From: a bacterium
GTDB lineage: Bacteria > Chloroflexota > Chloroflexia > Chloroflexales > Kallotenuaceae
Reading direction: 5' to 3'
DNA length: 34,642 nucleotides
Assembly (NCBI GenBank): GCA_016781525.1
Contig: JADDQE010000158.1
Location: 1-34,642, forward strand
The notes beneath the pieces are model-generated. The model did no database searches. It had not been told where the DNA came from and saw nothing but the letters and a program-made list of their open reading frames with translations. The position numbers and the translations under genes are program-made. Shown piece after piece: positions 26,787 through 32,204 of this stretch; position 1 is the first letter of the stretch, and each line of letters begins with the position of its first letter.

Positions 26787-27752
26787 TTACTCGAGTACGA
26801 TATCGCCGCTCTTGCCGCCGTGCTTTTCGGCAAGGCGAATATCTGTTAGCCGGATACCGCGATCCACGGCCTTACACATATCGTAGAGTGTTAATGCCGC
26901 CACCGACACGGCCGTGAGTGCTTCCATCTCGACGCCGGTCTTGCCCGTCGTGCGTACAGTCGCCTCGATTAAAAGCGCATTCCGAGGTAGATCCGGGGTG
27001 ATCTCGACGCTGACCTTGGAGAGCATCAGTGGATGACAGAGCGGAATAAGGTCGCTCGTCCTCTTCGCGGCCATGATACCGGCAATACGTGCCGTCGCTA
27101 GTACATCGCCTTTGGGTGTGCTTCCACTGAGAATCAGTGCCAGCGTCTCGGCTTGCATAATCACGCTGCCACGCGCGACTGCCTCACGCGCAGTGTCCTC
27201 TTTCGCGCCAACGTCGACCATGTGCGCCTGGCCGCGCTGGTCAAGGTGGGTTAGCTGCGGTTCGGCTGGTAGCGGCACATCGAGCGGCGTGGGCTGCCGC
27301 ATAAAGGTGAACGTACGGTCACGGAGGTATTCACGCTCGATGCCCAGCGCCTGCAAGACGCCTAGTGCGGCGTTCCCCGGAATTTCGAGCAGTGCCAGCA
27401 ACAGGTGTTCGGTGTTGATCCGCTCTTGGCCAAACGCTTGGCGCAGCCGGTCTGCCAGCTCAAACATATCTTGGGTGCGCTGCGTCCAGTTGATTTCGGC
27501 GCGTTCGGCGGGACGCCGCAGCGTGCCATGGCCGGCAAGTAGCTCTACGGCCTCGCGGAGCTTTGGCAACGTTACCCCGAAGCTCGCTAACGTCTGTGCT
27601 GCGATGCCGTTAGATGTGCGAAACAGACCTAGCAGCAAATGTTCCGTACCGATCAGCCGCTGTCGATAGGTGTTGGCCTCTTCCTGAGCCAGGCCAACGA
27701 CCTGCTGCGCCTCTTCGGCCAGCCGTTCCACCAACGTTGTGCGATCCGCCAT
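26787..27752 (-). CDS. moaC: Clp_N double-repeat / MoaC fusion (cyclic pyranopterin monophosphate synthase)
   Basis: A 321-residue fusion in one uninterrupted frame. Residues about 5-148 form a Clp N-terminal double repeat ([17 protein letters not shown] and [19 protein letters not shown]), the substrate- or adaptor-binding module of ClpA/ClpC; no AAA+ ATPase follows. Residues about 166-321 are a complete MoaC, which makes cyclic pyranopterin monophosphate in molybdenum cofactor synthesis. Its key residues are present: [13 protein letters not shown] (Lys214), LCHPL (His240), GVEMEALTA (Glu275, Glu277) and YDMCKAVD (Asp291, Lys294). The two are joined by a Pro-rich linker (about 150-165). MoaC alone is normally about 160 residues. 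I start at ATG 27752, with AGGAG four nt before it. No other moa gene is in the window. The Clp_N part may bind a protease or adaptor; this is inference. Confidence 0.9.
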
Positions 27753-27861: not shown

Positions 27862-28623
27862 ATGCAACGACGGACTATCTGGATCATTGGCGGGAGCGTC
27901 GTCGGTGTACTGCTCGTGCTATGCCTTCTGGTCGGCGGGATCGCTTGGTTTATGACGCGTCAAGTGCAGCGCCAGGAGCAGGAGCTTTCCAACATACTGG
28001 CAACCATAACGGCTAATGTCGAAGCGGTCGGCGTAACCGCAACGGCCGAGCTCGACGCAGCTGGACCGAGGGCGACGTCGGGCCCGGCTGTGGAGCCCAC
28101 GGTAGGCGCCACGGCACAGGCTACTGGTCCAACCGATCTGGCGACGATCCCAGCGGAGGCAACGACGTCTGCGACGGTTACACCAGGAGGCGCGGACAAT
28201 GCGAACGTCTCAGCGGCGCTGGTACCTCAAAGCCAGCTAGCGCTCGCGGAGCAGGGCAACGCCACGCTATACCAGATCGAGGCTGTGCTCGACCCCGAGC
28301 AGCATACGGTTGCTGGCGAGCAGAGCGTACGCTTGACGAATACCGAGGATGTTGCTCTGGACGAGCTCTATTTTCGCCTCTACGTCAATGCGCCCCACTA
28401 TAACGAAGGGGGGATCATCGTCACCGCTGTTACGGTGGATGGTGTCACGGCGACGCCGGCGCTGGAAGCCGATGAGACGACGCTGCGGATCAGGCTGCCT
28501 CGGCAGCTGCAACCGGGTGCTACGACCGAGGTTGCCATGCGTTTCACCACAACGGTGCCGCAGTCGGGCGGTGGCTACGGCATTTTTAATGAAGACGAAG
28601 GCGTCTTCGCGCTTTACAACTGA
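27862..28623 (+). CDS. N-terminal part of the interrupted M1-like peptidase
   Basis: The first 253 codons. An N-terminal membrane anchor ([20 protein letters not shown], about 7-26) is followed by a Thr/Ala-rich linker (about 50-115) and the all-beta N-terminal domain of M1 peptidases (about 125-253; [20 protein letters not shown]). AAGGA (27852-27856) lies 5 nt before ATG 27862. The part made before the TGA would hold no catalytic residue. Confidence 0.75.
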
Positions 28624-28638
28624 CATCCCGAGCTAGCG

Positions 28639-29718
28639 GTGTACGAGGAGGGAGGCTGGAAGCTAAACCCCGTCACCGAGCAGGGCGACCCCACGAACAC
28701 CGACGCGGCGAACTATGAGGTTGCTTTTGGCGCCCCTAAGGGCTTTACCGTCATAACGAGCGGTACGGATGTCGGGCAGACGGACGAGAGCGGGAGCATG
28801 GTCGTACACCACAGCGTCACAGCGCTCGCTCGTAACTTTGTCGTCGTCGCCAGCGATCGGTATGAGCAGGTGTCAGGTCAGGTGGGTGAAACCCAGGTCT
28901 CCTCCTACTACCTGCCGGATGATGCCAAGGGTGGCCAAGCCGCGCTTGATACAACCCTCAAGTCCCTCGATATCTTCGGCGAAGCCTTTGGGCAGTATCC
29001 TTATACTGAGCTGGACGTCACGCAGGTTGTCCTGGGTGGCGGCGCTGCAGGCATGGAGGCGACCGGCCTCATCATGATTGGTAAGGATTTGTATGGTGGC
29101 GAAGGCCGCGATCCTCTCGGCGAGGCAGGTGGCCTCTTCGGGGGTGCCGGTGGCGCAGATGCACTCGCGTTTACAACCGCACACGAGGTTGCGCATCAGT
29201 GGTGGTATAGCGTGGTCGGGAGCGATGCTTACGAGCAGCCTTGGCTTGATGAGTCGCTGACCAACTGGTCGTCGGCCTTCTATGTTGACGAGGCGCTTGG
29301 GCCTGAGGCCGGCAGGCTCGCGCGAGACCTGTTTATCGGCCTCGGCTACCGCGTGGTCCTGGCTGAAGGCGATCAGCGCTTAGACCAGCCGGTCGACAAG
29401 TTCGACAGCCAAGCCTACGGCGGTATCGTCTACGGTAAAGGCGCCTTGATGTACGACGTGCTGCGAGCAGAGCTTGGGGATCAAAAATTCTTTGAGTTTC
29501 TGCGGCGCTACTACCGCGAGCAGCAGTTCGACCGTGCCGATAGCGACGAGTGGTTACGCACGCTCAATGCTGTCGCGGGGAAGGATATGACGCCCTTCTA
29601 TCAGAAATGGGTGGAAGGTGCCGAGATTCAGCCAGCTAACTTGCCGCCCGCTGGACCGCTAGGCGAGATGCTAAGTCGCCTCGAGAGTGCGCTGCCCGAA
29701 GGTAGCTCGGCGCCATAA
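28639..29718 (+). CDS. C-terminal catalytic part of the interrupted M1-like peptidase
   Basis: A 359-codon open frame from a GTG that is probably an internal valine. It holds the substrate-binding motif GGGAAGMEATGLI (a GAMEN-like loop) and the zinc site HEVAHQWW (29182-29205). The third ligand Glu lies 18 residues after the second His, in LDESLTNW. A helical C-terminal part follows (about 215-340, YGKGALMYDVLRAELG). It is the gluzincin core that gives aminopeptidase activity in the M1 family. Confidence 0.8.
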   Translation: MYEEGGWKLNPVTEQGDPTNTDAANYEVAFGAPKGFTVITSGTDVGQTDESGSMVVHHSVTALARNFVVVASDRYEQVSGQVGETQVSSYYLPDDAKGGQAALDTTLKSLDIFGEAFGQYPYTELDVTQVVLGGGAAGMEATGLIMIGKDLYGGEGRDPLGEAGGLFGGAGGADALAFTTAHEVAHQWWYSVVGSDAYEQPWLDESLTNWSSAFYVDEALGPEAGRLARDLFIGLGYRVVLAEGDQRLDQPVDKFDSQAYGGIVYGKGALMYDVLRAELGDQKFFEFLRRYYREQQFDRADSDEWLRTLNAVAGKDMTPFYQKWVEGAEIQPANLPPAGPLGEMLSRLESALPEGSSAP

Positions 29719-31394: not shown

Positions 31395-32204
31395 ATGCCA
31401 GGTGAAATCTGGACCCAAGACGCGCTCGATCCGGAAGCGCGTGAGTTCTATTGCCGCACGCTTAGTGTGCTCAACGAGGCACAGATGCCCTATCTTGTGG
31501 GTGGCGCGTATGCATTCGAGCGCTACACCACGATCGCGCGGGATACCAAAGATCTTGATATTTTTGTGCGGCAGGCGGACTTTGATCGGGTGATGGATGT
31601 TCTGTCCGGCGCAGGCTACCGCACGGAGTTCACGTTCTCCCATTGGCTGGGCAAAGCATACTCGGGTGAACACTTTGTCGACGTCATTTTCCGGTCGGGT
31701 AATGGGGTGGCAGAGGTAGACGACAGCTGGTTCGCGCACGCAGCCGAAGCCGAGGTGCTCGGGATACCCGTTAAGCTCTGCGCGGTGGAAGATATCTTAT
31801 GGACAAAAGCCCTGATCATGGAGCGCGAGCGCTATGATGGCGCCGACGTCGCTCACTTGCTGCGAGCGTGCGCTGAAGGGCTCGACTGGAAGTATCTCGT
31901 TGCCGTCCTCGGGCCGCACTGGCGAGTGCTCCTCAGCCACCTTATTCTCTTCGGGTTTATCTATCCCGGCGAACGTACAAAAATTCCCGAGTGGGTGATG
32001 CAGGATCTGGTGGGACGCCTGCAAGCGGAGCTCGCTAGTCCGGCAGCGCAGACGAAGCTGTGCCAAGGGTCGCTGCTGTCGCGCGAGCAGTACTTGGTTG
32101 ATCTGCATCATTGGGGCTACCTGGACGCCCGGATTGAGCCGCGCGGCAACATGACGGTGGAAGAGACCGAAGCCTGGACGCGCGCGATCGACGAAGATAA
32201 ATAG
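31395..32204 (+). CDS. Nucleotidyltransferase-fold protein
   Basis: A 269-residue protein with the polymerase-beta-like nucleotidyltransferase signature near the N-terminus: LVGGAYAFER (Gly36, Gly37) and TKDLDIFV (Asp53, Asp55), which would bind metal and nucleotide. The third acidic position may be in VDVIF (about 96-100). The C-terminal half is helical (WKYLVAVLGPHWRVLLSHLI). It resembles stand-alone minimal transferases used on proteins or small molecules. No toxin-antitoxin partner is adjacent. AAGGGAGG lies just before the ATG. A terminator follows. Confidence 0.72.
   Translation: MPGEIWTQDALDPEAREFYCRTLSVLNEAQMPYLVGGAYAFERYTTIARDTKDLDIFVRQADFDRVMDVLSGAGYRTEFTFSHWLGKAYSGEHFVDVIFRSGNGVAEVDDSWFAHAAEAEVLGIPVKLCAVEDILWTKALIMERERYDGADVAHLLRACAEGLDWKYLVAVLGPHWRVLLSHLILFGFIYPGERTKIPEWVMQDLVGRLQAELASPAAQTKLCQGSLLSREQYLVDLHHWGYLDARIEPRGNMTVEETEAWTRAIDEDK

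Follow-up and report, generated by a model that had tools for sequence, protein, structure and literature searches.

The interrupted peptidase gene

The window (the whole stretch of 34,642 nucleotides that was analysed) belongs to a draft MAG of 4.9 Mb in 263 contigs, 86% complete, and carries an M1-type (gluzincin) metallopeptidase gene with a TGA codon in its reading frame. The question raised by this locus is whether the codon is decoded or is simply a lesion. The first-pass annotation had described an M1 frame broken by a single TGA with the same frame on both sides, and translation bears out both points: the TGA at 28621-28623 is the sole in-frame stop between the ATG at 27862 and the TAA at 29716-29718, and FALYN before it shares one frame with HPELAVY after it (Table 1). 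The read-through frame matches Pfam profile PF01433 (Peptidase_M1) in its C-terminal part with 69.6 bits (cut-off 27.7), and an HExxH motif with its downstream Glu (HEVAH...WLDES) can be read directly in the translation. No Pfam match was obtained for the part upstream of the TGA (27862..28620); its membrane anchor and linker were assigned by reading the sequence. The nearest solved structures by sequence are entries of ER aminopeptidase 2 (E about 2e-10). In coding-potential scans of the genome the coding signal was strong both 5' and 3' of the TGA, which ranked first among the candidates of the first scan and fourth when set among those of the second.

Table 1. Features of the peptidase locus, isolated mid-gene stops and selenocysteine codons (window positions unless a locus is named)
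Feature	Position	Strand	Basis or remark
Clp_N-MoaC fusion, divergent neighbour of the peptidase gene	26790..27752	-	Same neighbour in three congeners
M1-type (gluzincin) metallopeptidase gene with one in-frame TGA	27862..29718	+	618 residues if read through; Pfam, orthologues
Predicted product on termination: N-terminal membrane anchor, low-complexity linker, partial N-terminal beta domain	27862..28620	+	Without catalytic domain
In-frame TGA, codon 254 of 618	28621..28623	+	Isolated mid-gene stop at a Trp position; TGG/Trp in five closest orthologues
Downstream part, catalytic domain (HEVAHQWW zinc motif, WLDES)	28624..29715	+	PF01433, 71.8 bits
TGA in IS1-type transposase	L255:6261		Likely Trp position
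TAG in TPR/SARP-type regulator	L163:15946		Inspection/Pfam
TAG in membrane protein resembling a sensor kinase	L163:12368		Without Pfam support
TAG in response regulator	L199:3912		Inspection/Pfam
Sec UGA, GrdB-like protein	L171:3217		Scan and hairpin
Sec UGA, AhpC/TSA-like protein with UPHC	L177:10321		Scan and hairpin
Sec UGA, formate dehydrogenase, VENQARI-U-HSSTV	L254:11337		Identified from sequence alone, without a Pfam run

Orthologues and sequence change

The five closest orthologues (G001-G005) come from three genomes of the same genus and two of the same family. All of them have TGG at the position of the TGA and possess HEVAH or HEVGH as well as DES; identity of orthologues to the peptidase downstream of the TGA is 54-75%. 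Orthology is further supported by synteny, as the divergent Clp_N-MoaC neighbour recurs in three congeners. This neighbour combines a Clp_N domain and MoaC in one protein, and the fusion itself is conserved in the three congeners. Since the five closest orthologues keep TGG, the TGA is private to the window's genome among the genomes compared. It had been proposed that Trp is the family's residue at this site, which holds for the five closest orthologues but not for the wider family: Ala, Phe, Val, Ser or Tyr is found in homologues from further afield in the order, and Trp is conserved only locally, within the bacterial family.

A GTG codon lies at 28639, five codons past the TGA, and would suit an arrangement of two separate genes, one for a membrane-anchored N-terminal protein and the other for a re-initiated peptidase domain. 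This is highly unlikely, with the orthologues of all five closest genomes forming single frames across the site; moreover, a re-initiated half would lose the membrane anchor and start inside the beta domain.

The half of the peptidase downstream of the TGA shows no decay. It carries 12 private amino-acid changes in this genome, compared with 17 in the sister genome, and because changes are no commoner than in the sister the lesion is either recent or not real. Upstream of the TGA there are 10 private changes against 3 in the sister, a weak hint of faster change from few counts. Values of dN/dS between the window's genome and congener G002 are low (0.13 upstream, 0.06 downstream), although synonymous sites are saturated and the values thus carry little weight.

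Isolated mid-gene stops in the genome

The background of such lesions was taken from coding-potential scans of sampled stretches of the same genome, amounting to 1.55 Mb (883,678 and 667,942 bases) with 1308 called genes (736 and 572) and 6908 TGG codons (3926 and 2982). The scans list stops flanked 5' and 3' by coding signal and are blind to frameshifts; the lists were curated by eye and with Pfam. Most listed stops are boundaries between adjacent genes in the same frame, and five are isolated mid-gene stops (two TGA, three TAG; Table 1). This frequency gives an expectation of about 0.11 per 34.6-kb window, and one such stop in the window is unremarkable.

Random substitution acting on the genome's own codon usage predicts that 55% of new stops are TAG, 19-24% TGA and 21-25% TAA, with 28-48% of new TGAs arising from TGG. 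TGA at Trp positions accounts for two of the five stops against 0.3-0.6 expected, which is somewhat above expectation and not convincing. TGA does not recur at Trp positions in the 1.55 Mb, where one confirmed and one probable case stand against the 6908 TGG codons. Together the five stops amount to a background, low in frequency and mixed in kind, of nonsense lesions or errors of the consensus, and it is the scan of the genome itself that averts a false claim of recoding. Another feature of the sampled stretches, at L275:1-723, is a pair of response-regulator receivers in one frame: the first gene is complete, and the second, which follows it, lacks its N-terminal part and looks like a decayed duplicate.

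Genetic code and release factor 2

In the sampled stretches TGA terminates 277 of the 1211 called genes (about 23%); the code is standard and UGA is a normal stop. An organism-wide reading of UGA as Trp following the loss of RF2 might be suggested by the assembly, in which RF1 was found and no RF2 gene (prfB) was, although RF2 is present in all six relatives searched. The YitT-like gene that lies downstream of prfB in relatives was located at C86:30905-31774, and the contig ends 31 bases further on, at 31805, exactly where prfB is expected. As this neighbour adjoins the contig end, the missing prfB is most likely an assembly gap, and loss of RF2 was rejected. No close match was obtained in the assembly to the SIR2-like gene from the other side of prfB. 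The combination that marks reassignment of the stop to Trp, namely no UGA termination together with absence of RF2, was not found; the use of TGA as a stop and its near absence from Trp positions refute a changed code, for which the likelihood is practically nil. The only tRNA-Trp found has anticodon CCA, with none carrying UCA in an assembly that is incomplete and may have missed a gene.

Selenocysteine codons

The genome encodes SelB (312.6 bits) and a tRNA-Sec with anticodon UCA (67.7 bits), and UGA codons for selenocysteine (Sec) were identified in three genes (Table 1), each with a single long hairpin a dozen or so bases 3' of the UGA. The case for these three codons being genuine is convincing. 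The genome is in this respect like those of other bacteria with selenoproteins, with at least three selenoprotein genes besides the insertion machinery, and standard gene calling would truncate the real selenoproteins in which UGA is read as Sec. Such machinery could in principle insert Sec at the peptidase UGA. Unlike bacterial selenoproteins, the peptidase has neither a redox motif at the site nor a long single hairpin after the TGA, although fold z-scores alone do not separate the site from the Sec genes. Cys or Sec never occurs at this position in the homologues, which have Trp, Phe, Ala, Val, Ser or Tyr; insertion of Sec is for this reason extremely unlikely and was rejected.

tRNA-Trp and read-through

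The tRNA-Trp gene (anticodon CCA; C257:10085-10158) has a C31.U39 mismatch in its anticodon stem next to the loop, leaving four pairs. This form of the tRNA is common to the congeners and widespread in the order. In the window's genome eight Ns occupy the 5' end of the gene (L175:10081-10088). A tRNA-Trp with a 4-bp stem can raise UGA read-through (PMC13092985, 2026), and programmed or functionally used reading of the peptidase UGA as Trp would then yield the enzyme at a reduced and perhaps regulated level. The system of that study is similar to the present one in that CCA is kept and four pairs remain in the anticodon stem. The stems tested there were open at the top (27:43), the bottom-open class being set aside in the study, whereas the tRNA here is open at the bottom (31:39); furthermore, it occurs order-wide, including in congeners that keep TGG, while UGA still terminates genes in the normal way and is very rare at Trp positions. 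Because the mismatched tRNA-Trp is order-wide, it cannot explain a change that is private to one genome.

The intact downstream half of the peptidase would also fit functional read-through, and purifying selection on in-frame stops has been reported in bacteria (PMC7918605). That study required a stop common to at least two genomes, whereas the peptidase TGA is present in one and conserved in no relative, the five closest orthologues having TGG. Programmed read-through as Trp, one of the origins put forward in the first-pass annotation, is left unsupported: no congener has the TGA, Trp positions are not clearly enriched in TGA, TAG lesions occur alongside, no recoding hairpin follows the codon, and no UGA-decoding tRNA besides tRNA-Sec was found in the genome assembly. 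We regard it as very improbable. A variant of the idea is that the open 31:39 pair of the order's tRNA-Trp(CCA) raises UGA read-through to the extent that an occasional TGG-to-TGA change is tolerated, the peptidase being a functional tolerated site; this is decidedly improbable.

A suppressor tRNA-Trp of the Hirsh type was also considered and rejected, A9 and G24 being normal as read from the sequences (the first bases are masked in the window's genome and complete in congeners). Lowered use of UGA was examined as a sign of leaky decoding. TGA makes up 23% of stops in the window's genome and 26%, 30% and 29% in G002, G003 and G007, all with the mismatched tRNA-Trp, compared with 39% in G004 and 21% in G006, which have a 5-bp stem; in these small samples there is no clear link to the tRNA-Trp stem.

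Origin of the stop codon

The TGA is very probably an isolated TGG-to-TGA nonsense substitution with no dedicated recoding, present either as a recent mutation or as a base error in the MAG consensus. Nonsense mutation and sequencing error, the other two origins proposed at the outset, both remain, and we infer that the lesion is recent and of one or the other kind. A conserved membrane-anchored M1-type metallopeptidase gene would thus have been hit by one nonsense substitution at a Trp codon. If real, the mutation may have reached fixation in the sampled population or be polymorphic there; translation would stop after residue 253, and no zinc-peptidase domain would be produced. UGA is the leakiest stop (PMC5289835), and for this reason basal misreading by tRNA-Trp(CCA) could still supply full-length protein, at most in trace amounts. 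Several observations, the leakiness of UGA among them, count against a simple nonsense substitution. The lesion falls on a Trp codon and leaves the coding signal undamaged 5' and 3' of it, which is also what decoding as Trp would produce; a second TGA, in the IS1 transposase, occupies a likely Trp position; and the order-wide tRNA-Trp has a weakened anticodon stem.

Interrupted genes of this sort are common, and the peptidase case is ordinary. In M. smegmatis they make up 1.4% of coding capacity, and 28 of the 73 that were re-sequenced proved to be sequencing errors (PMC1852416). The present case resembles them in consisting of one isolated lesion in a conserved gene that is otherwise intact, and in the low genome-wide frequency of such lesions, with real mutations and sequencing errors mixed. 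Errors in that catalogue were sorted out by re-sequencing, whereas here there is the consensus of a draft MAG alone. A lone in-frame stop in a draft genome should be treated with caution, as expected background.

Y RNA-like elements

Next to a TROVE/Ro (Rsr) protein gene on contig C186 (10646-11330; minus strand of locus L162, 2600-3400), four tRNA-like elements were identified, each with an insert of shared motif replacing the anticodon arm. A UCA suppressor tRNA on this contig was considered and rejected, the interrupted tRNA-like genes fitting YrlA-type Y RNAs. By analogy with such RNAs (PMC8394870) they are consistent with a cluster of putative Y RNAs with tRNA-like domains, and four of them in a row may be unusual.
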